Shown: positions 3,001 through 49,761 of the stretch, piece by piece
Position numbering within the stretch: the stretch's first letter is position 1
Layout: each line of letters opens with the position of its first letter
Assembly (NCBI GenBank): GCA_905250025.1
Contig: CAJNOJ010000027.1
Location: 1-64,000 of the forward strand
Origin: Adineta ricciae
Taxonomy: Eukaryota > Rotifera > Eurotatoria > Adinetida > Adinetidae
DNA: 64,000 nt
Reading direction: 5' to 3'
Made by a program: the position numbers and the translations under genes
Notes under the pieces: generated by a model
Databases searched by the model: none
What the model was told of the DNA's origin: nothing
The model's input: the letters and a program-made list of their open reading frames with translations, nothing else

Positions 3001-6000
3001 GCGGCAAACTGACATTGATACCAGAGAAAGTTGGCGAAGACACATCACATACTGTACCGATGGATAAGAAACGTGGACTCGGAAAACCGCAAGGAAAGAC
3101 ACCTCGACCTGTGGAAATGGTGCCCGGTTTGGACTTCCAGCCGAGCACATCGTCACCAGCAGGTCCAGAAGAGAATCGACCACCACGCGTACTAATTCCC
3201 TTGACTGAAGGCGATGTCAAGGAAACAATGCCTGCTTTACTAACAGCCACCATAGATGCAGGTTCACCACTCGCAACGGTAAGCAGTCGGTTAGATGTTT
3301 GCAACAGGCTTGAATAAGCACCGAGGAATATATATTTCTGAGCTTCTTTCACTTCTTATTGGTCTTACAAAATGAAACCTCACTGCTCTATAAACTAGAC
3401 ACTCTGAAGTGTATCTCTCTAAAAAAAACTATACAGGAATTTACGAACACAAATATTGCATGATTTTATTTCTTACAGTTCACATGGTTCAAAAATGGAC
3501 AACCACTCGTTGCTGGTGATCGTTTTATCACCAAGTATGATGTCGTACCAAAGACGGTCACTCTGGAAATTCTCGATGCACGACCTGAGGATCAGGGAAC
3601 GTACACACTACGTGCTGCAAACCCAATTGGCACTGATGAAACCACAACCAAATTAACCGTGAAACCATCGACAAATACCGATGCACAGCAATTCGCTCAA
3701 CCTAAGCCATTGCAAGTGACAGCACCGCAACCAACTCAACAAGATCTGCAACAGCCGCAACCACCGAAAGTCATTACACCCATAGAAGATGCAGAAGTAG
3801 TTCAAGGATCACCAGCCCTACTACGTGCCACCGTCACTGGAAAACCGACACCAACAGTAAGAACTGAAAATAATAGATATCACTCTTTTGTAGAAAAACA
3901 TTGTCTATCTAGTTCACTTGGTTCAAAGACGGTAAACCACTACAGGCATCACCTCGACTTAGAACGCGGTATGACGCACCGACCAATCAAGTCCTTCTTC
4001 AGATCAACGATGTTCAACCGGAAGACGTCGGCCAGTACCTAGTGGTTGCTACGAATCCGGCAGGCGAAGACTCCACGGGTGGGAAAGTGAACTTAATACC
4101 CGAAAAGAGTGGCGAAGACACTTCAGACACGGTTCCTACTGGACTAGGACAGCCACAAGGCAAAACACCACGACCATTGAAAGTGGTGCCAGGTCTAGAC
4201 TTCAAACCGGAGAGCGCCATACCTGACGAAAATCGACCGCCACGCGTGATTATACCACTCAAGGATGGTGATGTTAAACAGACTATGCCAGCTTTACTCA
4301 CAACCACAATTGATGCTGGTTCACCCACAGCAACGGTAAGCGTGGATTCCTTATTCACGGAGAATGATTCCTTTTGTGTAGTTCACATGGTTCAAGAATG
4401 GTCAACCTCTGGTTGCTGGTGATCGTTTTATCACCAAGTATGATGTTGTACCAAAGACACTGACATTGGAAATACTCAACGTGCAACCGGAGGACCAGGG
4501 CGCCTACACGGTTCGAGCAACAAATCCCGTGGGTAGTGATGAAACGACAGCGAAGCTAACAGTTAAACCACTGACGAATGCTGACGCTCAAGATTTCGCA
4601 CAACCAAAACCGCTAGAAGTAAGTGCACCGAAACCAACTCAACAAGAGATGCAACAGCCACAACCGCCGAAAGTTATCGTGCCGTTGAAGGACGCTGACG
4701 TACGAAAGGGATCACCAGCTCTTCTTCGTGCTACTATCACTGGAAAACCGACACCAACAGTAAGCGTTCTACTACAGTGAATAGTGAACTATTGTAAGCA
4801 TTCCTTCATTTCTAGTTCACTTGGTTCAAGGACGGTAAACCACTTCAGGCATCACCTCGACTTAGAACGCGGTATGACGCACCGACCAATCAAGTGCTTC
4901 TTCAGATCAACGATGTTCAACCGGAAGACGTCGGTCAGTATCTTGTGCTTGCCACAAATCCGGCTGGCCAGGATTCGACTGCTGGTAAAGTGAACTTGAT
5001 ACCAGATAAGGGAGGGGACGAGACTTCTGGTGTTGTGCCGACGGAGAAGAATCGTGGATTAGGGAAACCACAGGGTAAAACACCACGACCATTGAAAGTA
5101 GTACCTGGTCTGGATTTTCAACCAACAAGTCCCGCGCCAGAACAGAACAGGCCACCGCGCGTTATTGTACCTCTAAAAGATGGTGAGATCAAAGAAACTA
5201 TGCCCGTGGTACTGAGTGCTATGATCGACGGTGGTTCACCCATGGCTAAAGTAAGTTGCCGTAAATTGATGAAATGGTTCGCAGTGCTGAAGATTTCATT
5301 TCTAGTTTACTTGGTTCAAGAACGATCAGCCATTGGTTGGAGACCATCGGTTTATCACCCGATACGATGTGAAGCCAAAGATCGTTACGCTAGAAATCCT
5401 TAACGCACGACCCGAAGATCAAGGAACGTATACCGTTCGTGCTACAAATCCAATTGGAAGCGATGAAACAACGGCTAAACTAGCCGTTAAACCGTTAACA
5501 AATGCTGATACGCAAGGATTCTCTCAACCAAAACCATTGCAGGTACCCGCACCACAACCAACTGAGCAAGAGATGCAACAACCGCAACCGCCGAAAGTCA
5601 TCGTACCATTGAAAGATTTAACTGTACGAAAAGGCTCTCCAGTATTATTGCGAGCTACTATCGTTGGTAAACCTACCCCAACCGTAAGAATTTCTTTCCT
5701 TCTTTGAGTTTCGGAGGATAATTTGCCACTTTGTTTCATCGTTAGTTTGCCTGGTTCAAAGATGGCCAACCATTACAAGCGTCGCCTCGTTTCCGAGTAC
5801 GCTACGATGCCCCAACAAAACAAGCTCTTCTTCAAATCGATGAAGTACGGCCTGAAGATGTTGGACAGTATCTGGTACTTGCGACAAATCCGGCCGGACA
5901 AGATTCCACAGGTGGCTCTGTCAGCTTGATACCGGAGAAGGGAGGCGACGAGACTTCCGGTGTTGTACCAGCGGAGAAGAATCGTGGACTAGGAAAACCA

Positions 6001-25284: not shown

Positions 25285-28003
25285 GTCATATCAACAGCCG
25301 CCATCATCGTAAGTCATTTTTCTCTCTAATCAATTTGTTAGAATACGAAAAATTTCGATCTCTGACCGATACTTTCAATTACTGTTTGTTTTCTATTTTA
25401 GTGGACCCAACAATCAATTACCGCCCTTTGGTAAACTGATTTCCTGCTTCTTATTGATTATAGTATATATTTTCGTGTGTCTTTTTAGATTGGTCGCTAC
25501 CCGGTAGAAATTTTGGTAATGGTCCTCCACCACTAATGGGCATTCCAACTCGAGTTCGTTTCTTTTATTCATAAAACTAAATTGAATGTTTTTGTTATAT
25601 TTCGAATAGGATGAAGTTCGATTGCCATCGACTATGGAGCGTGTTTTGAAATTCCGTGATAACCAACACGAAGAAGATCGTGTTACTAGATTACATAGTG
25701 GCGGCCATGGTGGTGGTCATCAGACTGATTCAGGTATTGAGCAGAATGATGAGTATGATGATGAAGAATCTGACGATGAAACAACTGCTCAGAATGGTCT
25801 CTCACGAAAAACGAAGAAAGAAATTGAAAAGCGACGTCGACGTCGAGCGAAAAAGAAAAACAAATCCACAACAGCAACGATCGCTCCTGTTGCTCCGCCA
25901 CCGCCAGCACAACCAGCAAAATCATCGGAATCCTCTTCGAAAGACTCAGACAAAAAGAAGAAAAAGAAACAGGAGCCTGCTGATGACGAGGATCAAACTA
26001 ATGTTGAAATTGAATACGTTCCCGAAGATCTTCCCGTCAAACGCGGTGACGGTTATTATTCTCATTTTGTTAAAGTATTCGAGAACTTCAAATTAGACCA
26101 AAATGGTGGCGAAAATGGCGAATATTACTATGATAAATACGGAAAAAAGATTATGGGACCAAAAGTTCTTCAGCCCCGTGATAAAACAAATCTCGAAGAA
26201 AACGAAGACGATGAAGACAGCGACGACGAGACTAATAACGATAAAAAGAACAAAGATGGCGACGATGAGGAACAAAATAAGAAGAAATCCAAAAAGCAAT
26301 TAAAACGAGAAACACGTCTGAGTGTTGCTCAATTAAAACAATTGGTCATTCGACCTGATGTCGTCGAAATGTTCGATGTTACCGCCAAAGACCCCAAACT
26401 ACTTGTGCATCTCAAAGTAAGTTGTAAGAATTGGTGTATAAATTCTCTTCACCTTTGTGTTTTTCTTAAGGCCACACGAAATACGGTGCCCGTCCCACGT
26501 CATTGGTGTGCGAAACGCAAATATCTACAAGGAAAACGTGGTATTGAGAAGCCACCATTTCAATTGCCTGATTTCATTCGTCGTACGGGTATTATGGAAA
26601 TGCGTGAAGCTTTACAAGAGAAGGAACAAAATAAAACTCTGAAACAGAAAATGCGTGAAAAAGTTCGTCCAAAACTCGGTAAAATTGATATCGATTATCA
26701 AAAGTTGCATGATGCTTTCTTCCGTTGGCAAACGAAACCACGTATGTCAATACATGGTGATTTATACTATGAGGGCAAAGAAAACGAAACACGTTTGAAA
26801 GATAAAAAACCGGGCGTTCTCAGCGAAGAATTACGTGTTGCACTCGGTATACCAGTTGGACCTACCGCAGATAAATATCCTCCACCATGGCTGATCGCTA
26901 TGCAACGTTACGGACCACCACCGAGTTATCCAAATCTAAAGATACCTGGTTTGAACGCACCTATTCCTGAAGGTTGCCAGTTTGGCTATCATAGCGGAGG
27001 CTGGGGTAAACCGCCTGTTGATGAACATGGTCGACCGTTGTATGGTGATGTGTTCGGCACGAATCAATTTGCTTACATACGAAGTATGGCAGAAGAAGAG
27101 CATGTGGATAAGAGCTATTGGGGAGAAATTGAAACCGAAGAACAAGAACAAGACGCTGTTAGTTCATCTGATGAAGAAGAGGCCAATGAAGATACTGGTC
27201 TCGATAGTGAATTGTCCTCAGATGGACAAATGGCTGCGCCGTCGACAACAGATCATGCGCATCATCATGTACACCATCACCATGGCGCAGCAAATGAAGA
27301 ACAACCGATCCATCCAGCTGGCTTTCAAACACCACACGGCAGTGAAGGTTTCGCGACGCCTAGTGGTAAGTTTACTTACCTCTATGAGAGAAGAAAACAA
27401 GTTCAATACTCTTTTTTCTAGGTACACAATCGTCCATACTTGGTGTTGAAACACCACAACAGGTAAATACTGTCATTTCTACGTTTTTTTTCTTATTCAA
27501 ATCGATTTGAATTTCTTTAGTTTGAAATACGTAAATCTCGCTTTCATGCAGAAATGGAAAACGATGCTGCGCCTTCTCTTTACACTGTTCTACCTGAGAA
27601 AAATGTTGGCGTTGGCCAATCATCTCTGTTGTCAACGAATCGTGTTTATGATTTTCAAGCCATTAGTAAATCACAAATGGGTCAAGCGTCGAGCGGTCGA
27701 AATGATATGTCTGGTGGCGTTGACATCGCTCTCAATCCCGATGAACCCGAGATGAGTAGTCAAGCATTAGAAGCACGTTATCGACAAGAATTAAAAGATA
27801 AAGAAATAAGCAAAGAAGATCTTAGTGATATGGTTTCAGATCATTTGAATCGACAAAATAAAGTAAAATCCCCCTTTTCTTTCACATACATCTACTTTCA
27901 AGTGTATTTTCTTGTTTTCTTTTAGAAGCGTAAAGCTAAGCAAACAGATGCAAATGCTAAAGATGGCAGTGCAGCTAAACAAGACAAAAAATTCAAATTT
28001 TGA
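25285..28003 (+). CDS. SF3B2: Splicing factor 3B subunit 2 (SF3B2/SAP145)
   Basis: A component of the SF3b complex of U2 snRNP, which holds the branch-point interaction in the nucleus. Short 5' exons begin MSYQQPPS. A charged region with KKKKKK-type and acidic runs follows, then the family core VEIEYVPEDLPV and YYSHFVKVFENF. Next is the DUF382 region (KLLVHLK, spliced to ATRNTVPVPRHWCAKRKYLQ, then KPPFQLPDFIRRTGIMEMRE). The PSP domain follows (PGVLSEELRVALGI, PPPWLIAMQRYGPPPSYPNL and GCQFGYHSGGWGKPPVDEHG). An acidic, His-rich stretch (DHAHHHVHHHHG) and a Lys-rich end (KKFKF) complete it. Roughly 750-770 aa against about 895 in human; the N-terminal SAP domain and long Pro-rich region are missing. 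It converges on the Na,K-ATPase beta gene with 85 bp between stops. Confidence 0.95.
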
Positions 28004-28088: not shown

Positions 28089-29226
28089 TTATTGAAACCA
28101 CAATTCGAAATGTACGGCGCCCGTCATATCTTCAATACTGGTGCTCTGACGAATATTTCTTGCGTACGCTCGACAGATAATATTCAACAGAACGTTCGAC
28201 TCCACTTTAATAAATTGTGCCCATATGTAAGGCTGCCGATAACCAGGTTGATTTAAGAACGGATAGTAATATAATGGAATGCCACCAATGGCTTTATTAC
28301 CTAAGATGGAAATATGATCGATTTGATGAATTAAATCTTGATCAGTTGGATATTGTCCGAAGCATTTGATTAAAACGTAATCTTTCATAACCGGTTGCCA
28401 GAGATCGCGAATTTCCAATGGAACTTCGTCTTTTGATTGATAAGGTTCTGGCACCCATCCAAAGACACGGTTCAATTTGATAACTACGCACGGTCGACCT
28501 TTGTTATAACCATAATTTTTCGGCTTTGAACATGGATTCGGACCAGGCTTAACATCAGTAAAGAAAAATATACAGGAAAGACCTTGACGAAAGTAATTTA
28601 TCAGCACATCGCGTGGTAAACCAGCGCAATCGATCATCTGCTGATGATACTGATCTTTAAGCCCATAACCAAGAACCCATTGGTGAACATTGTCAACCAT
28701 CTGAATGAATGATTGGTGTCCGGTCTTACGAGAAGTACGCCATTGAATTAGCGAACGATCCATATAATACTGTGGTCGAAAACCGAGTCCTTGAGAAGAA
28801 AAAGTGTTGATGAGAAACAAAGCAATAGAAATTATCAATAGTCCTACCTGGATTGATCCCATTATCGAATGCTAGTGCACTTTCATTACCAAGTCTTCTA
28901 GGCGTTTTCTTATCAAGTAGTAGAATATAAACAATGACGAAAGCCGAAAAAATGACACCTAAGACGAAGAAAAATATCGAATAGAAACATCCGAGTTTCG
29001 CCCATTCAAGACCGTCGCGTGCACAGAATCGTCGTGTGTTGCGATTCCAGATATAGTTTCGTATATTCGAAAGATGATCAAAACCAGTTAACGGACCATC
29101 CTTAATCAAAACATCTTCCCTCGTAGTCGCCGATGGGTACAATGGAGATCGGAGATTGCTTCTTGGGCGAACAATGTACGGTTCACGAGAATTGATCGTT
29201 TCAAACCATTCTTCATCTGAATCCAT
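28089..29226 (-). CDS. Na+/K+-ATPase beta subunit
   Basis: Two exons (29226-28848 and 28789-28089) give 359 aa. It is a single-pass type II membrane protein: about 90 cytoplasmic residues, one TM (LGCFYSIFFFVLGVIFSAFV), then the ectodomain. The ectodomain has the family pattern: CAGLPRDVLINYFRQGLSC near the position of the first disulfide region, CSKPKNYGY, then PCVVIKLNRVFGWVPEPY. Next come VLIKCFGQYPTDQDL and IGGIPLYYYPFLNQPGYRQP, then YIWAQFIKV and IICRAYARNI, ending in a beta-strand (GAVHFELWF). The beta subunit is needed for folding and delivery of the alpha pump to the plasma membrane. The N-terminal extension is longer than in vertebrate beta-1 (about 300 aa). H,K-ATPase beta cannot be excluded formally, but the protein sits among invertebrate nervana-type subunits. 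Confidence 0.9.
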
Positions 29227-32021: not shown

Positions 32022-35000
32022 ATGAATACCGTACAAGTCTATGTATATTTTCAACTTTTCACGGCAATAATATCGACAACAGCACTTCAATCTCCATGTC
32101 AATATATCGATTCAACTGAACAGATATTTAAATGTGATCTATGTCAATGTTTCTCCGCGCCAGCAAGCTTTTGTCCCGTAAATTCACGCTTAACTTGTTC
32201 GAATAACACTCAAGATGATTTTAATCAAATTCCTCTCTTGTCATCATCAAATCAACTTGAATTACATCATTTTAACAACGAAGTACCAACTTACGAACCA
32301 ATCTGTGCAATAAAAACCTTTTCGCAATTAAAATATTACCAATCAATAGTTTCGACGATACCACAATGCTTATCGTCGATCTCATCGATCTATTTCGTTC
32401 ATTCAACGATTCATCGAAATCGATTCTCTTCGAACAAGTTGATTTTCTACAAATCAATGTTAAATTTTACGAATTTGAATCTGACGTCAACGAAGATCTT
32501 GACATTGGATTCAGTTCAATTTCTTGTTAAACCATTTCATTTGAATTCGTTAATAATGTTGACACATTTAACTATCACACACACAGAAGATTTCTATCTT
32601 CTCGGTTCGTATCCTCAACTTTCGTATCTCAATTTAGACAATACGAATTTAACTGATAAACAACTAAATCGAATCTTTACTCAAACAACAATTCCGGACT
32701 TGACAACATTGATCCTTTCGAACAATTATCTCACAACATTGGGAAATCGTTTTCCTTCGACCATTCGTTACTTAGATCTCTCAAAAAACCAAATCAAATC
32801 TTTGAATTATTATTCCTTCAAATCTCTTTATTCATTGAATATCTTAAACATAAGTTACAATTGGCCATTAGAAATTCAACAGGATACTTTCACACGTATA
32901 CCTTATCTAGAAATTCTTGATATAAGTTATACTTTACCAACACTACCATTCGATGATCTATTTCTACCGTTACAGAAACTTCGACATTTGAATGTTTCAT
33001 CCAATGCACTGGATACTCTACCGCATTTACCGATTCCACATGACGCACATATGATTGAAAGCTATGATCAACATTTGCCTGTTCTGTACGTTGATCTTTC
33101 GAATAACAACTTCGAAAAGCTCGATTTGGACGTGTATTCCTCGTCATCGACACAAGATAAATACATTCTTTCGTTAAATATGAATTCGAATCGGATAAAA
33201 ACTCTGAAATCTTCTTCAATGCTATCGAATGATGCGAAACGACGTGGTCCATTCATCGAATTCGAACTGATGAACAACTCCTTGGAATGCGATTGTGATT
33301 TATATGAAAGCATCAGTCAGCTATTACAAACGAATTCATCACTGCAAAGAGCAAATACAGGAAATAGTACGTATTGATTCAAAATGTATTTCCGTGAGAT
33401 TAAGAATATGCTTCTCTTGCGCAATTAGTTGAGTAGAAGATTTGCATTTCAAGGTGAACAGAAAGATTATATGACCGGAAATTCATCGAGATAAGTAAGC
33501 TCATTTAACAACGGAAGTCTAAAGAAGTTCTATACAATGACTGTCGAAACTAAGGCCAGGCCAATAGCGATTATGATTATTGATTAGATAGATCGATTTA
33601 AGTAACAAATTGTCTTTTGTTTAGCATCGGCGTCTAATCAACTAATAAATCGTATCAGAATTATTCGATTGTCTAATCTAACATGTCTGGATTTGATTGA
33701 TCCAACAAATTTACACTCGTTATATGACTTAAACTCATCGAACAGTTTTTGTTCGTATACGAAATCTTGCCCATCAACATGTTCGTGTTGTTTAACATCT
33801 GTCTCATCAAATGATTGTCATTGTTATTCGCAATGTCCACATCAATGTTCATGTAAGCATTCAGTTGATTTAACGCATAATTCAGTGAATTGTTCCAATC
33901 AACAACTGTATCAAATACCGGCAGATCTTCCCCATTCGACAACGCATCTCTATTTGGACAATAATGAGATTAGATACTTCGATCATAACTTTACGTACTT
34001 AACACGATTGAAAGCTCTTTCGTTAGCGAACAATTCATTTGAATATTTGACAAATTATGATTTTTTTACAATGAATCGAATAGAATACCTCGATTTATCC
34101 TCGAATCATATCAAACACATCCAGTCGAAAACATTCATTAATCTGATTAAACTCAAGAAACTTTATCTACATAATAATGACTGGATGCCAAATTTTTATC
34201 ACCAGGAAAATCTTTTTCAGTCAAATATTCGCCTTGATCTGTTAACATATGGAAATGGATTGACATGCAATCGTTCGACAATCTCCTCGATGATCATTAA
34301 TGAACGACCATTAACAGCGGAAGATTGCTGCTCAACATATACCGATGTATACGCATGTGAAAAGAAATTTCGAGTGGATAGATACAATCTCAAACATGAA
34401 TTGAGTTCAACATATTCGAAAACTTATTTTTTCTTCATATTGTATCAGAAATATATCCTTTTCGGCTTAATCATTTGTTTATTCGTTATTATATGTTTGA
34501 TAACTATTTACATCAATCGGAAAAAACGAGAATTTCTCGCAAAAGAAAAACTTCTGTTAAATGCTGATCTGAAACTCGAGACAAATCTTTACGACACAAA
34601 AGGTAAAACGAGATTGCTTCCGAATGGATTGATGTTTGTTTTCTCTTCAAAGGAATGAAATACAATCAACAAGGAAATGATAATTCGATCTCTTATACAG
34701 ACGAAGATGAATATGCTTCCATACCTTTGACGACTTCTCAGACAGATTTAAGTTCAATCATTCATTCTCAAACCATTATACCTCCACTTCCACCGCGACG
34801 GCAGTTCATTTCCAATCGTCCAGTTTCACATTCATCAACTGTCTCAACGACGATCACTAGTCCAAATTTTTCCTCGCTAACCACTACTCATTCATGTTTA
34901 CAGATCAAACTCGACGTACTCGTACTCTATTCAATAACCGATAGTAAATACATTCATGACAATATCGGCCAACAACTGGAAGATGCCTACGGCAAACGAT

Positions 35001-35341
35001 TTAGTTTCCATTTTATTCATCGCGATCGAATGTTAGGTGAACTGGACTGGTTAATCGAAAATTCTTGTGTAACAATCTTAATTCTGCGTAAACCATACAA
35101 TCAGATTCATGATTATATGAAAATTTTATCCACATATGCATCGTTGAAATGTTTTATCATCTTAATCAATCATGAACCGAACCATCGATTGATTTCGATC
35201 AAAGCTCGAGAAAAGATTGCACGATTGTATCGAACATCCGACATATTCGAATGGAATTCTGATCCAAAGTCTTTGTTACATGAACAATTAGATTTATTTC
35301 TCGAGCAAAATTGTGGTTCAGCTACTTACGTCCCAGATTGA
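32022..35341 (+). CDS. Toll-like receptor (multiple cysteine-cluster type)
   Basis: Three exons (32022-33366, 33625-34602, 34653-35341) give 1003 aa. A signal peptide (MNTVQVYVYFQLFTAIISTT) is followed by a Cys-rich N-cap. Leucine-rich repeats include LTTLILSNNYLTTLGNRFP, IRYLDLSKNQIKSL and VLYVDLSNNNFEKL. A C-terminal cap (NNSLECDCDLYESI) is followed by a second Cys cluster with a new N-cap (CPHQCSCKHS) and further LRRs (THLYLDNNEIRYFD, IEYLDLSSNHIKHI). One TM follows (YILFGLIICLFVIICLITIYI). After a Pro/Ser-rich linker with PPLPPRR comes a TIR domain (KLDVLVLYSITDSKYIHDNI, YGKRFSFHFIHRDRMLGELD, then NSCVTILILRKPY). Two Cys caps inside the ectodomain mark the Drosophila-Toll-like class. The ligand is unknown. 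The start was chosen at the signal peptide; an in-frame ATG at 31887 would add a non-secretory N-terminus. Confidence 0.9.
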
Positions 35342-35986: not shown

Positions 35987-38590
35987 ATGAATGAAATTCG
36001 TCAATTGTGCACAACATCAGCATTGCCTAGTAAACATCTCGATGAAATTCTCGCACTTTTTCAAGCATGTCCGCCACAGTATCGACTTCCTTCGTTGTCG
36101 TTAATCTGTCAATCGATATCATGCATGTCCATCGAACAATTGGATGTTAGTGTTCTCAATCATCAGTTGTTTTTTGTTATTCGACAATCTTCGGAACATT
36201 TACTACAATCATGGTTAACGAATGGCTCGTTGAATGGTCATGAATATCGGGCAATCTTTTATATTTATCAGTTATTTAAACTCGTATCAGAATGGTTGAT
36301 CGAACAGGATCATATGATCGTTGATATGAAGGCGAAAGAATTAACTAAACGAGTTATGAAAAGCCTCTTTCTTGACGAGAGTTTTCTGAAAACATTATGT
36401 CGAGTTATTCAGCAATTGGTTCGTTATGAAAATGATGAACAACGTAGTACAGTAACAAGTCCTCTGTTTGTAAGTTCAGTTTATTATCGTTTCTTGTCAA
36501 CAATTTTCCAGTGTATTTCCAGGATGGCGATGATAATCCTGTTTCACCCGATGATGTTCATCTTCAAACTCATGTATCAGATATTCAAGCGGAACAAACC
36601 GACATCATCGATGTTCTGTTTCGTTGTGTGAATTCTTTAGTGATTCTGTATACTCACCCAATCCTATTGAATAGTTCGATTGTGGATAAAAATCTGACAC
36701 CTTGCGTGATCCATTGTCTTCATTCGTCGCTATTTCTTCAACTTGCCACAGATTTTCTACGTCAGAATATCACCAATGATCAAATCAACATTCAATCGAT
36801 CTTTCTACTATTTACTTGCTTAGATTATTGCATTCTCTCAGCAATAACCATTTCCACATTACGATTAATTCCGTCAATCCGGGAAATCTTTCAAACCTGG
36901 TCGACAATACCTCGAATGGACATTTCACCTTTAATTATTCGTCTTATTCGTTTTATCAATCAGTTAACCATAGCAGATAAAGAAGCAATTATTCGAGAAA
37001 ATCTCTGTTCGTTCTTTCTTCCATCATTTGAACTTCTCTGTCAAACATCGAATTTAACTGATGAGATTGCGTCTATACTCATAACACTCTGCTCGATCAA
37101 TCTCGGAAGAAAACATTTACGTCAATTAGGCTTCATTCGTCACATTCTACACGGAACAAAACGTTATGTTCAATTATGGCGCCCATTGGCGTTATTACTC
37201 ATTCAGCAAGATCTACAAGAAACGTCGTTTCTAAATCGATTGATTCATTTGTTAACACAACGAACTATAACTCTTTTTCAATCATTAACAGCCACATCAA
37301 ACGATACATCGTTTGATTCGACTTCACCTTCATCCAAAGTTCAACTTACAGAAGTCACGATTGAATGGTTGCTCTTATTACGAACGAGTTTCTTAACATT
37401 TTCATCGATCGTCGATGGATTGATCAGTACCAAGCGAAAAGTGAACTTTATCAATGTTTTAATCGATACGATTTTATCGGTTCAGCAAGATGAAGATACC
37501 CTGCCGAAATTGATCGATGTTATGATCGAATTTCTGTGGACATTTGTTTTCAGTACAACAACAACTATTTCTGAAACTTTACCGAAACATCTCGATTTAT
37601 GTCAATGGTTGAAAAGCAACAATGCTGAATCATTGCCGAGCATACGCTTAACATCGCAAGGTATCCTTTCGACTCTAGAATTCAATTCGAAGACGCTAAG
37701 TAAGTTAACATTTTCATTTAAGACTTCAATGTTCACATCCGATTCGAACTTTAGATCGGTCGTCAATTTCAACAAATATTCTCATCTGTATGATTTATGC
37801 TGATGAAGCACACCGAGATTTATGTGTGATTCTTCGAGATCGATTGCAAATGGAACAACAGTATTCTGTTGAACTTCTCTTGACTTCAACATGTCAATCA
37901 ATTGAATCGTTAATTCAACTTCTCAATCGTTCATCGCTCGCTCTCTTCTGTGCTAGTACACAGATGAAAAGTGATAATCTCTCGCATTTCATCCATCACT
38001 ATCTCTCCCATCAATCATATAAGACACCTCTGTTGGCTATTCTGACAGAACAAGATTGCGAACTCGATGGAAATTGGTTAGAGAATATTTCCATCGTTGA
38101 TAAACAATCAATGCTCAAACAAATTCGACGATATCTAAACCAAAATGATGAGAGTCATCTGCCGTTGACTGACATTCCAAATGAAAGTTATCGCCGTGTT
38201 AGCAATTTTCATGATATACATAACCAATCAGGAAATTATACTCAACGGCCTGTTACATATTGGACAGCCGATGATGTGACACAATGGTGTGAGGCAACTC
38301 CGGGCAATTTCGAAACACTACGACCGCTTGTCAAGCGTCTCAACGGTCCTGCACTGGTTCATCTCGCGGAAATTCTCTCGATCGAACCAGCATCGATGTA
38401 TCATAGTCTGAATAGCGAATTAATACAACGAACAGGTTCTAATGTTCCATTGACCGATTATGTGTCGTTAAGAAGTGAATTGCAACGATTACTAGTTGAA
38501 AAACTTCCGGAGAATATACCAGATGCCGATGTTAAAGCTAAGCCCAAGAAAAGAAGATGGAAACATAGTCGTTTTTGTACTATAATTTGA
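35987..38590 (+). CDS. Helical-repeat + TIR-like + SAM-like protein, SARM1-related architecture
   Basis: Three exons (35987-36469, 36523-37699, 37755-38590; introns 53 and 55 bp) give 831 aa. Residues about 1-560 are almost entirely alpha-helical Leu/Ile-rich sequence, consistent with an ARM/HEAT-type solenoid. A TIR-like alpha/beta module follows at about 570-690: strand NILICMIYADEA, helix LCVILRDRLQ, strand YSVELLLTS, helix SIESLIQLLNRSS, strand LALFCAS, strand TPLLAILTEQD. A SAM-like module lies at about 720-800 (TYWTADDVTQWCEATPGNFE, LVKRLNGPALVHLAEIL). The tail is basic (KPKKRRWKHSRFC). The order helical-TIR-SAM differs from SARM1 (ARM-SAM-SAM-TIR). At the position where SARM1 has its catalytic Glu (WVHKE helix) this protein reads HFIHHY, so NADase activity is doubtful. 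It is probably a cytoplasmic innate-immune or cell-death adaptor next to a Toll gene; the function is inference. Confidence 0.7.
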
Positions 38591-41708: not shown

Positions 41709-43449
41709 ATGACAAGATTGCCCTCTGCAATTCTTTTCACCTTATTAGTACATATTAATGAAGCACACGTGAACCCGTCGACGGAGTTGTCATTTATGTT
41801 CAATTCGACGATTTCCAATCGAACAACATTAACTTCTCCTTTGTTGAGACAACCGACGCGACAAGCAACCTATCTCGGTGCCATACTCGCATTTGTTTTT
41901 ATTTTCTTTGGTCTGATCGGAAATATTCTTCTTATAACAACAATCCTTTCGGTGAAAAAACTTCGAATTAATATTATCAATATCTTCATTGTATCGGTAA
42001 GTTTATTATGTCGAACTATTTCCATGTCTTTTACTACAAATTGACGACGGAATGTATCTGTGCGCAAACATACATCCAACACTTCCGTCTTCTCTTCGTT
42101 GTTCTCAATAGAAGTAGGCAGGATGGAGTAAACATACCGGAAACTATTTTCACATTTAATAGTTCAATCATGTACTTTGCCAAGAACTCATCGTCATGTT
42201 CTGGTCACGTTCTACATTTTATGTCGAACCTCTTCTTCGTAACGAATGCGGCCAAACGTAGTGTTTTCTTCTTCAAGTAGATCAAATTTGCGTTTGATAG
42301 GGAAAGAAAAAGCTTCCACTTATTCCTCTTTTCATAATGATCTAATCAAGCAGAAAAGCTTTCATTTCCGTTTTTTCTTCTTTTTCAAAGCAACTATTTT
42401 ACTGCAGGTCATAAAAGTGTTTAATCGGTGGAAAAAAAAAGAAAAATGCCATTCAGAATGAATCCAAATAGGAACTTTTGTCAGTTCCGATTGCTGTCGA
42501 ATAATGATTTACTTTCGTTTAGTTACAATTCAATGATTTACTCAACATTGGTTTTAATCAATTCTTCGTTGGACTTTCCTATGCCAATCATCATTGGGTT
42601 GGCGGGCCTTTGATCTGCAAATTAGTAGTCTATTTTTCAACTGTTTGTATGGGTTGTCTTCTTTGGCATCATTGTCTAATTGCTATTCACCGCTTAATTG
42701 TTGTTGTTTATCCATCTTTATTACGTCGCATGTCAGTCAAAACGTATGTGATTGTTTCACTTGTCATTACTCGAGTCTTACCGATCTTATGTTGCATTCC
42801 TTCGTTTGCAACATATTCGATCGAGTATTCACCTCAAGCATTACGTTGTTCCATAAGAAATAAAGTGCAAATATTCATTAACTTAACTGTTTTAATTATT
42901 CTACCTAATGTTATTATTATTTTTTGTTTTCTCGGCATCTTCTTTCATGTTTATCATGCATCATATACAAGCGGAAGAACAACGACTCCTTCGACATCTG
43001 TTTCGCATTCATTAAGACGTGAAATACGTATTACAAAAATGTTCGCCGTTTTATTCACGTTGTTCTTTCTCGGCTATCATCCCTACGGATTCGTACGTGC
43101 CTATGATAAACGTCGTCAATTACATCCGGATATATTTGTTCTATTGACATTACTCTATTGTATATCAATATGTGCCTCACCATTCGTCTATGGGATAATG
43201 AACAATCAATTGCGTCACGAGTGTATGCGCGTGATTTTCAACTGTTGGCATTGTCAAAAGATTGATGATTATCGGAAATATTCGCACGGCCGATTGAATT
43301 CAACGGTGACAACAGCATTAACAGTTGCTAATGATGGAGGTGATGACGGACGGGCAAGTCCATCAGCAGCGTCAATGCGTGACTTATCTTGTAAAACAGT
43401 GCGAAAGAAAACATCAAGTGCAACCATAGTTGATACTGCTCATATTTAA
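41709..43449 (+). CDS. Rhodopsin-family (class A) orphan GPCR
   Basis: Two exons (41709-41996, 42523-43449) give 404 aa. An N-terminal signal-like segment is followed by an Asn-rich extracellular part with N-glycosylation sites (NSTISNRT). TM1 has the class A GN (FFGLIGNILLITTIL). TM2 spans the intron (FIVS/LQFNDLLNIGF). TM3 starts after a conserved Cys (GPLICKLVVYFSTV) and ends IAIHRLIVVVYP, where DRY is replaced by HRL. TM4, TM5 (IFINLTVLIILPNVIIIF) and TM6 (FAVLFTLFFLGYHPYGF, with the FxxxYxP form of CWxP) follow. TM7 ends ICASPFVYGIMN, where NPxxY is SPFVY. The tail is Ser/Thr-rich. It resembles the moody/Tre1-type and other invertebrate orphan receptors more than amine receptors. The ligand is unknown. 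Confidence 0.85.
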
Positions 43450-47343: not shown

Positions 47344-49761
47344 TTATTCGAGTTTTGGCGAAGATGATGGATCGTGTTTGTCTTCAGTTTCATCATGTTG
47401 GTAGTCTTCCGAAGAATGGTTATGATCAAAACTCAATTGTGTTTTACGTAGGTTCCAATGGAGAATGTCAGCTAGTGATTCAAACCAATCGCCCAATTGA
47501 TCAAATCGACAGATAGACGGTACAGGATAAACACTTGTGGTGATGCGAACACTAGAAATTAACATTACGTAGAGAAGATTCTTGAGGATGTTTCGCCATT
47601 ACCTGTCTTGCTGTTGAAGTTCGTGCCTATTTCGTCCATCAACAGAAAGCCAAGCTGTGAGACGAGTATCCTCGGAAACCTTCACTTTTAATTCAATACC
47701 AGCAGGTACAACAATTGGTCTGAATGATAGCGAGTGTGGACAAATGGGACAGATGACCATCGCAGGAACATTAGGATGAACCATTGACGACCCAGCTAGA
47801 GAAAATGTTTTTAGTTTCATACCGAATAGTTGATAGAACAAAACAAAAACAACGTACCAGCCATCGCATAAGCTGTCGAACCAGTTGGTGTTGATACAAT
47901 TAAACCTAGAAAAGAATTCTCCAACTTGAAGAAAGTCATGGATAAAAGCAAGTGTTGCAATTAGAAGAGTGAAGCAACCTAAATCTCTGCTACAGGTGAG
48001 AATACAGACAATAGATGAGGTATATCTACAGATCTTGGCGAAAAAGGAATAATCTACTAAAAAACAAATCAATTGTCTATTGTTCTTTTTCTCATTTATT
48101 GCGTAAGATTGAATCGAGCTACGAAACAATCATCTTACCGTCGCCTTGAACTTTAGTAATAAATCTGTCATTGATATACAAGTCTAGATTGGATAAGTAC
48201 GAGTTCGGTCCTCGGTCGATGACGACTTCATTCAATGCTAGATGAGAAATTTTCTCATCTTTTTGTGCGTGTTGATGTTTTTCATCTTTGGATATTTCTT
48301 CTGGTGACAAGGATCGAAACGATGCTTCCGATGAAGATTTCTTCTTTAAACCATCTTTGACAATTGAGCATTTTAAACGTGTACGTAAGAGAACAGCTAC
48401 ATTGCCTGATATAACCTCATTGATGATTTTATCATGATGCTTAAAATCGAATGGAGTTAGAAAGCCCAAAGATCCCATGGAGAATGATAAGACTGGTGGA
48501 CAACTTCGTTGAAATATACTTGAAGCATGTAAAAGTGTACCGTCACCACCCAAACAAACGATTAGATCAATCTTGGCTATGTCATTCTCTAGAATGAAAT
48601 CGATTAAACAGAATAAGTAAGATTGATGAAGAGGTACCACGATCGAAGGCAAGACATCGTTCAGCGTGTTCTTTTAATTCAGCATCTTGAGCAAATGGAA
48701 GATGCATATGTTCAGAAAGTTCAACATAAACATTCAGACGACGCTAAAATCATGTTTTTGAAATTTGTTCTTCTCGAACAAATCGTATGCCAAGATTTCT
48801 TACTTTAAGAAGTTTCACGATTAGTTGTCGAAATTCTAGCATAGTTTGTGGTCCTGGTTTACGAATGATAAGAATATTGTTTGGCGGAGATATCCAATGT
48901 AGACGTTGAGTCGATGGATCTTGTATAACACTACAAATGCGAAAGGACAATTGTGAGTTGTTTTAGGGAAGTAGAAACGAACATGAGTTGATCATTGTTT
49001 TGTATCTTTTTCAATGTGGCTTTTGGACCAAAATTTGACTTGGGTGATGGAGCAAATGCTGAACGTGCACGCCTAAAAATTGAATCAAAGAAATAGTTGA
49101 AAAATCGTGTGCGAATTTCGATTAGAGTAAGCCAATTTGTTAACGTATATTATTTGGCGTAGATTCGAGAAGCATTACCTCGTTTTACTATTATCCACTG
49201 ACATCGAAATTGATCGTCTCGAAAACGAGATAGGAAATGCAGGTGGTGACGATGTCATTATCCTAGTTAAAGAAACTTCGCGCCAAAGGCAGGTACGAGT
49301 ATTTAAATGTACAAAGACACGTCGGCAGACGAACATATTTTCAGGCACATAGAGGAAAAACTATTGTGAAATATATACGTAGAGAGAAGAGAAAGCAGTA
49401 AATTGATGATATAGTTTGTAATCTATAACAAAAAGCATATTTTAAAGCGTTATTGCTCATAGATAGGAATTAGTTCGGATCACTCAAATCGATGACGCAA
49501 GGACAATAAGATAGAAACTAACCAGCATGTCTTCGCAGTCGGTCGATTGTTACAATGTGGAAGTGGAGCACAGATATAACCATCATCGTCACATTTTGTT
49601 ATGTATTGATTATAATTTTCAGTTGAATTAGTCGCTGCGAATGTTTCTGAATCGTCATCATCTGCAGCTGATTGTAATGGAGAATCACCAACACTAACAG
49701 ATCGTCGTTGAAAAAGAAAGGTCCGTGGTGGTGAGGTTTCAGAAATAGCGTGATTACTCAT
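47344..49761 (-). CDS. NADK: NAD kinase (NADK)
   Basis: A cytosolic enzyme that phosphorylates NAD+ to NADP+ using ATP. Exon 1 encodes a Ser-rich N-terminus with QRRSVSVGDSP. Exon 2 carries RARSAFAP and FGPKATLKK. The next has VIQDPSTQRLHWISPPNNIL. The catalytic core shows the GGDG motif (IDLIVCLGGDGTLLHASSIF), SMGSLGFLTPFDF, LNEVVIDRGPNSYLSNLDLY and the NAD-binding STPTGSTAYAMAAG. It then has MVHPNVPAMVICPICPHSLS and FRPIVVPAG, and TAWLSVDGR. The C-terminus DWFESLADILHWNLRK matches animal NADK and is followed by an acidic tail, again typical. A 104-bp piece of exon 1 is repeated at 54201-54304 next to an N, most likely an assembly artefact. The upstream neighbour on the same strand ends 189 bp away. 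Confidence 0.95.
49529..49632. repeat. NADK exon-1 segment, copy 1 of a 104-bp exact duplicate
   Basis: Base-for-base the same as 54201-54304, in the same orientation, 4.67 kb apart. This copy lies inside an intact reading frame and is the genuine one. Confidence 0.9.

Follow-up and report, generated by a model that had tools for sequence, protein, structure and literature searches.

A TIR-like domain lacking the catalytic glutamate, followed by a SAM domain and a CaaX-like tail, in a candidate membrane-anchored scaffold protein of Adineta ricciae

The window analysed here is a stretch of 64,000 nucleotides of Adineta ricciae DNA (assembly GCA_905250025.1, contig CAJNOJ010000027.1, positions 1 to 64,000 of the forward strand), and the gene under study occupies 35987..38590 on its plus strand. 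The ATG at 35987 and the stop codon at 38588-38590 that the initial annotation assigned to this gene are correct, and removal of two GT-AG introns (36470-36522 and 37700-37754) leaves three exons that encode one open protein of 831 amino acids. We infer the exon joins, since splice enumeration shows that alternative GT-AG choices within the same two gaps likewise remain open, giving 826-854 codons including the stop. Exon 1 (35987..36469, plus strand) encodes 161 amino acids of N-terminus that appear helical by eye, and exon 2 (36523..37699, plus strand) encodes a helical region without a Pfam family, the end of which (37378..37680) resembles by hhalign the corresponding end of the helical region found before other TIRs of the genome. 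Exon 3 (37755..38590, plus strand) carries a TIR-like domain from which the catalytic Glu is missing (37772..38146, limits approximate), a SAM domain (38252..38488), and a basic tail with a CaaX-like end (38540..38587, KPKKRRWKHSRFCTII) whose last four residues are CTII, followed by the stop codon.

A plain protein search of the assembly (130.5 Mb in 1,033 contigs) returns two further copies of the protein, on contigs C39 and C234 (loci L009 and L010). The C39 and C234 copies hardly differ from each other and, in exons 2 and 3, share 53-54% identity with the window copy; the combination of a near-identical pair with a 54% pair would, we presume, fit the structure of a bdelloid genome. Between the window copy and the C39 paralog exon 1 is 60% identical, with a ratio of nonsynonymous to synonymous substitution rates (dN/dS) of 0.085 at saturated dS; in exon 2, where the paralogs are 53% identical to the window copy, the ratio is 0.18 (dS 2.0). 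Overall the ratios between the window copy and its paralogs are 0.09-0.18, which are rough values given a dS of about 2 or more that is partly not computable. Between the C39 and C234 copies dS is 0.09-0.21 and dN/dS ranges from 0.05 to 0.22: 0.08 in exon 1, 0.22 in the helical part, 0.05 (0.048) in the TIR and 0.13 in the SAM domain and tail. By these ratios the gene is under purifying selection in all three copies and in every segment, and it is not decaying. The initial annotation had raised the prospect of a lineage-specific family, and the copies at two other loci form part of one in this genome.

The SAM domain is genuine by sequence homology. Against a profile built from 32 SAM stretches that sit behind TIRs elsewhere in the genome, the E-values of the three copies lie between 7.5e-17 and 5.8e-16, the latter being that of the window copy; none of 2,100 shuffles does better than 0.25. 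The 32 stretches were gathered by iterated search from five seeds that included the window SAM and those of its two paralogs; the trio was removed from the profile, which is nonetheless not wholly independent of it. A plain protein search of the genome reaches two of the family SAMs (E 3.3e-4 and 8.8e-4), and a single-sequence AlphaFold model, poor as it is, has five helices at this position. In Pfam the window SAM matches only SAM_Ste50p, at E 0.083. With phmmer, ETV6 SAM chains in the PDB are reached chiefly where the SAM occurs in repeated copies, and single stretches match weakly. Two family SAM stretches, those of L019 and L050, match Pfam SAM_3 at E 0.0033 and SAM_PNT at E 0.13, both short of the cut-offs. 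The placement of a SAM-like domain behind the TIR-like one in the initial annotation is thus borne out by segment profiles.

The tail, which the initial annotation does not mention, shows a further regularity. The window copy ends in CTII and both paralogs in CTIL, despite a diverged linker before the tail. Across the family, position -4 is a Cys in 24 of the 44 distinct C-terminal frames that bear a SAM (22 of 42 without the two paralogs); the fraction is rough, since a frame may stop at an intron and closely similar copies do not count independently. All 24 end in a residue from a broad list of usual CaaX last residues, and the remaining eleven of the twelve final positions hold 0-4 Cys apiece in the 44 C-termini. 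For comparison, Cys stands at -4 in 5/201 other frames of at least 100 amino acids from the same loci. The pattern suggests that the cysteine of CTII is probably prenylated and that the tail serves as a lipid anchor.

Homology of the middle domain to TIRs is weak yet consistent across profile comparisons, where that of the SAM domain is strong. Searched with a profile of 42 TIR hits of the genome, the three copies score 9.5-10.9 bits (E 0.045-0.12; 0.05 for the window domain, 0.045 and 0.12 for the two paralogs) and outrank both 2,100 shuffles, the best of which reaches 8.5 bits, and every open reading frame (ORF) of the window. The sole row ranked above the trio is the N-terminus of L012, a second TIR-like control. 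Profile against profile in local mode, the comparison scores 29.8 over 90 columns, and the best of 200 column shuffles scores 26.2 over 26 columns; set against 17 TIRs it scores 26.2. The low-confidence AlphaFold model follows the beta-alpha order of a TIR, and VIA-align of that model returns mostly other Rossmann-like folds, with TIRs among the tied rows. On balance we regard descent of the middle domain from TIRs as likely but not as proven.

Residues of the active site set the trio apart from the TIR_2 hits of the genome that were compared with it. At 37973..38005 (plus strand) lies the helix where other TIRs have their catalytic Glu; here it reads DNLSHFIHHYL and contains no Glu, so that the HFIHHY reading of the initial annotation was right. 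We took the catalytic column from alignment with Cat1 and RPS4, and its identity also leans on what we assume of TIR active sites in general. The comparison sample consists of 52 TIR_2 hits, drawn from the better-scoring of 152 matches and from L011 and L012; some are paired matches within one frame, alleles or tandem copies, and the sample does not amount to 52 independent genes. When aligned with hmmalign, the column holds Glu in 51/52 of these hits and Gln in one, and Ile in the window copy with Val and Ala in its two paralogs. An alignment shift by one residue would place Phe there in all three copies. Four further profile columns that are 96-100% conserved elsewhere (W33, D35, Y65 and C71) are also replaced in the trio, which retains G98-W99-L100, the G-(x)-W-L motif found in intact relatives. 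SARM1 is reported to lose activity when its Glu is mutated (PMC8635717). From these replacements the TIR-like domain of the window protein is probably non-enzymatic.

The arrangement of domains links the gene to a large set of relatives. TIR_2 matches the genome 152 times at E<=0.01, several of them in tandem (for example on contigs C19, C7 and C162). The order of domains was counted in 40 loci (L013-L052) taken by TIR_2 score alone, which represent only part of the TIRs of the genome. A SAM domain follows the TIR on the same strand in 33 of the 40: in 22 loci a single open frame spans both, and in the other 11 the SAM sits in a separate downstream open frame, for which a single protein is assumed. 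The loci without a downstream SAM are L023, L024, L030, L034, L037, L042 and L052, where a later exon may fall outside the stretch. Adding L011 and L012, found by their SAM, and L053 brings the count to 35 of 43. The window gene, with its weakly supported TIR-like domain followed by a SAM domain in one protein, has the order of this family. The claim that this order is new does not hold, as TIR-then-SAM is the usual arrangement in the loci examined, and a predicted TIR-SAM hybrid gene with a cDNA is described from amphioxus (PMC2575513), which resembles the window gene in having TIR and SAM within one gene.

The N-terminal regions of intact family members are mostly related to each other. When the pre-TIR stretch of the trio (37378..37680) is compared with a profile of 10 such regions, hhalign returns scores of 32.0-33.1 (E 0.004-0.0025, probability 8-12%) over the last 95-155 residues, collinear up to the TIR, and the best of 60 column shuffles scores 22.8. 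Single-sequence comparisons of the helical region of the trio with canonical N-termini gave nothing significant. In a tree of 29 TIR-SAM pairs, with arbitrary root and a program warning of long-branch joins, the trio forms a single clade (100/100), whose branch measures 4.33 changes per column. Two family proteins, at L012 and L028, are built like the window protein, with a long N-terminal region, a TIR, a SAM domain and a CaaX-like end; unlike it, they keep the catalytic Glu and match Pfam TIR_2. Members of the family other than the trio mostly keep the Glu and probably act as enzymes. The 943-amino-acid open frame of L012 (906-3737) carries a second TIR N-terminally, degenerate and with Ile in the Glu column (E 9e-11), after which come a long middle part, the intact TIR, the SAM domain and a CMLM end.

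These results are best accounted for, in our judgement with a probability of about 0.6, by a gene that is a fast-diverged, lineage-specific branch of a large helical-TIR-SAM(-CaaX) family and whose product is a membrane-anchored, non-enzymatic TIR scaffold. The initial annotation had suggested a scaffold that does not cut NAD+, which is also the role we favour, the Glu being absent from all three copies. The prenylated cysteine of CTII together with the basic tail would hold the protein at the membrane, where the SAM domain could polymerise or pair with other SAM proteins. The TIR-like domain would then enter TIR assemblies as a scaffold, an adaptor or a brake, without cutting NAD+, and the helical region may sense or dock a partner. 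The likeliest partners would be the family relatives, most of which keep the Glu, and a linked, likely Toll-like receptor (TLR) described below. TIR assemblies are described as being of two sorts, scaffold and enzyme (PMC8635717). In the same account MyD88 and MAL form non-enzymatic TIR assemblies, the working mode proposed here; unlike them, the window protein has no Death domain that we found and has a SAM domain and a CaaX-like end instead.

Several observations weigh against this proposal. Pfam finds no TIR family in the window protein even at E<=10, the curated cut-off not being reached, and a PDB search with the TIR profile of the trio gives no match. In global mode the profile comparison scores 23.2 over 124 columns, which lies inside the range of the local-mode shuffles. 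Structure prediction, put forward earlier as a check, yields the beta-alpha order at low confidence (predicted local distance difference test, pLDDT, 44), and Foldseek of this poor model gives no E below 0.013, with non-TIR folds in the lead and the TIRs of RPS4 and human SARM1 (7djt) at ranks 8 and 18 among unrelated Rossmann-like folds. No ARM or HEAT family is significant by Pfam in any helical region scanned, the best repeat match across the ten ORFs being HEAT_2 at E 0.13, and because of this 'ARM-like' is a label of our own only; as in exon 2 of the window gene, Pfam finds no family in the helical region of the paralog scanned. The annotated order of helical part, TIR-like domain and SAM holds. 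The very long branch makes the place of the trio in the family tree unsure. Finally, 20/44 of the SAM-bearing C-termini lack Cys at -4, although some of these frames may stop at an intron, and catalysis through another residue, considered below, has some small probability.

Among the alternatives, a dominant-negative regulator that poisons assemblies of the enzymatic TIR-SAM-CaaX relatives seems to us rather unlikely, if the least so. SAM and TIR are both assembly domains, and the protein combines the order and anchor of many intact relatives with a Glu-less TIR, as such a regulator would; the long divergence of the trio may, however, prevent co-assembly. A different function for the same fold is an unconventional TIR enzyme that still cuts or binds a nucleotide by way of another residue. 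In its favour, the two paralogs show purifying selection on the TIR-like domain (dN/dS 0.048 from one to the other), and the trio shares the G-(x)-W-L motif with intact relatives; against it, neither the Glu nor any of the conserved W, D, C and Y residues is left in place, and a Glu column that varies among I, V and A is unlike a retained active site. We regard it as improbable. We hold much the same opinion of the view that the middle domain is mislabelled as TIR-like and is some other alpha/beta domain, only the SAM being real. Here the silence of Pfam and PDB profile searches, the mixed Rossmann-like folds matched by the poor model and the dependence of the profile scores on alignment mode all count in its favour. 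It has to contend with profile comparisons that beat all shuffles of the same mode, at the very place where a TIR precedes the SAM domain in the relatives, and with about 90 aligned columns that keep the G-W-L motif.

Least probable of all, and in our view very unlikely, is the descent from SARM1 that was suggested initially, in which the TIR would have moved inside the protein and NADase activity would have been lost. SARM1 has the order ARM-SAM-SAM-TIR, with the TIR terminal. SARM1, or C. elegans tir-1, and the window protein do share helical (ARM in SARM1), SAM and TIR or TIR-like modules, and 7djt is among the Foldseek matches of that poor model, at the rank given above. In SARM1, however, two SAMs precede a terminal TIR with a catalytic Glu (for the Glu, PMC8635717), whereas here a TIR-like domain without Glu precedes a single SAM, and relatives with the same TIR-SAM order retain the Glu. 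Across the 43 loci L011-L053, which take in part of the TIRs of the genome, the family SAM profile, which misses at least the Pfam SAM_2 stretch in L053, finds no locus with two SAMs ahead of a TIR. Intact relatives searched against the PDB match Cat1, RPS4, TLRs and MyD88 at E 5e-12 to 3e-6, and tir-1 or a SARM1/tir-1 chimera only at E 0.006-0.008. We therefore set SARM1 descent aside in favour of the diverged, non-enzymatic scaffold within the TIR-SAM family.

The order typical of SARM1 was also looked for by comparing, by eye, the 61 SAM_2 matches with those of TIR_2; among the matches listed, only contig C186 has SAM_2 upstream of TIR_2 on one strand at a distance of a few kb or less, in pairs at two places, each pair about 2.7 kb apart. 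L053, taken from this contig, has a SAM_2 stretch (2080-2154) and, about 2.6 kb later, a degenerate TIR (4346-5254) in which HCRNVLRTA replaces the Cys-x-x-Glu motif. Other frames lie between the two, and with this middle part read by eye we do not take the locus for SARM1. The family SAM profile is blind to the SAM_2 of L053, and SARM1-type SAMs elsewhere could escape it likewise.

Other multidomain TIR proteins of invertebrates provide a broader setting. ARM-TIR proteins are described from Aplysia (PMC9334734), a clam gene has the order ARM-Death-TIR-TIR, and ecTIR-DC family 6 combines an ARM-like region, a Death domain and two TIR domains (PMC6836662). These ecTIR-DC and ARM-TIR proteins, like the window protein, join TIRs to other modules, some with ARM repeats, and have been proposed as adaptors (PMC6321704, PMC6836662, PMC9334734). 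Two loci of the present genome, L042 (1454-3511) and L030 (1425-3089), have two TIRs each and a CaaX-like end, and L042, in which Pfam further detects a Death domain (E 3.6e-11) and where Gln takes the Glu column in one of the TIRs, recalls ecTIR-DC family 6. The literature search turned up no bdelloid TIR-SAM family or CaaX-bearing TIR family among the matches listed; Gerdol et al. 2017 or the A. vaga genome paper may list it.

Just upstream of the TIR-SAM gene, at about 32022..35341 on the plus strand, lies a second gene, which the initial annotation does not mention, with two leucine-rich repeat (LRR) blocks, a Cys-rich junction, a hydrophobic, presumably transmembrane, helix that we read by eye, and a cytoplasmic TIR-like domain (34898..35338); its start codon and exon joins are predicted. 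Pfam identifies LRR_8 in it at E 1.1e-15 and 4.7e-12. For both LRR parts the best PDB match is the acid-labile subunit, with 8suf and TLRs coming after, and for this reason the LRRs alone are not Toll-specific. The entry 8suf, a 1007-amino-acid 'TIR domain-containing protein' which we take to be C. elegans TOL-1, matches both LRR parts in order, with 283-390 aligned to 409-518 and 26-214 aligned to 683-869. The model of the TIR-like domain (pLDDT 57) gives six Foldseek matches with E<0.001, all of them entries of TLR1, TLR5, TLR2 or TLR10 with a TM-score of about 0.5, the TLR5 entry being itself a homology model. VIA-align of this model places receiver and Rab folds level with TIRs. By sequence, Pfam and phmmer against the PDB find no TIR in the C-terminal domain, which scores 19.4 against the genome TIR profile, with two of 200 shuffles higher. 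An LRR-transmembrane neighbour also lies upstream of both paralogs (L009 6518-8768 and L010 6560-8750), where its cytoplasmic part is 74% and its TIR-like domain 76% identical, and the three loci hold the only clear copies of that part. Judging mainly from the structural model, the upstream gene likely encodes a Toll-like receptor.

Accounts of bdelloid immunity bear on this assignment. PMC8609888 and PMC6043800, both of which cite the A. vaga genome paper, report that A. vaga yielded no canonical TLR. For the transcriptome of Rotaria tardigrada PMC8609888 likewise lists none, and it states that TLR-like proteins were present, data not shown. It is conceivable, though we would call it speculative and on the whole unlikely, that a cryptic Toll-like receptor signals through the linked helical-TIR-SAM protein as a dedicated, prenylated and catalytically dead partner, which would act as a stand-in for MyD88 and either plug Toll signalling into a large array of prenylated TIR-SAM NADases or restrain them.

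If the genome is that of a bdelloid, the locus suggests a lipid-anchored TIR-SAM set with enzymatic and Glu-less members, and a Toll-like receptor that sequence-profile searches miss. Three matters become testable in consequence: Toll signalling in bdelloids, the placing of TIR enzymes at the membrane through a CaaX anchor, and the steering of such enzymes by a dead TIR paralog. Elsewhere in the window Pfam identifies genes for a DUF382/PSP protein (25610-27418, plus strand), a Na/K-ATPase beta chain (28092-28871, minus strand), a rhodopsin-type G-protein-coupled receptor (42523-43446, plus strand) and a NAD kinase (48122-48673, minus strand).

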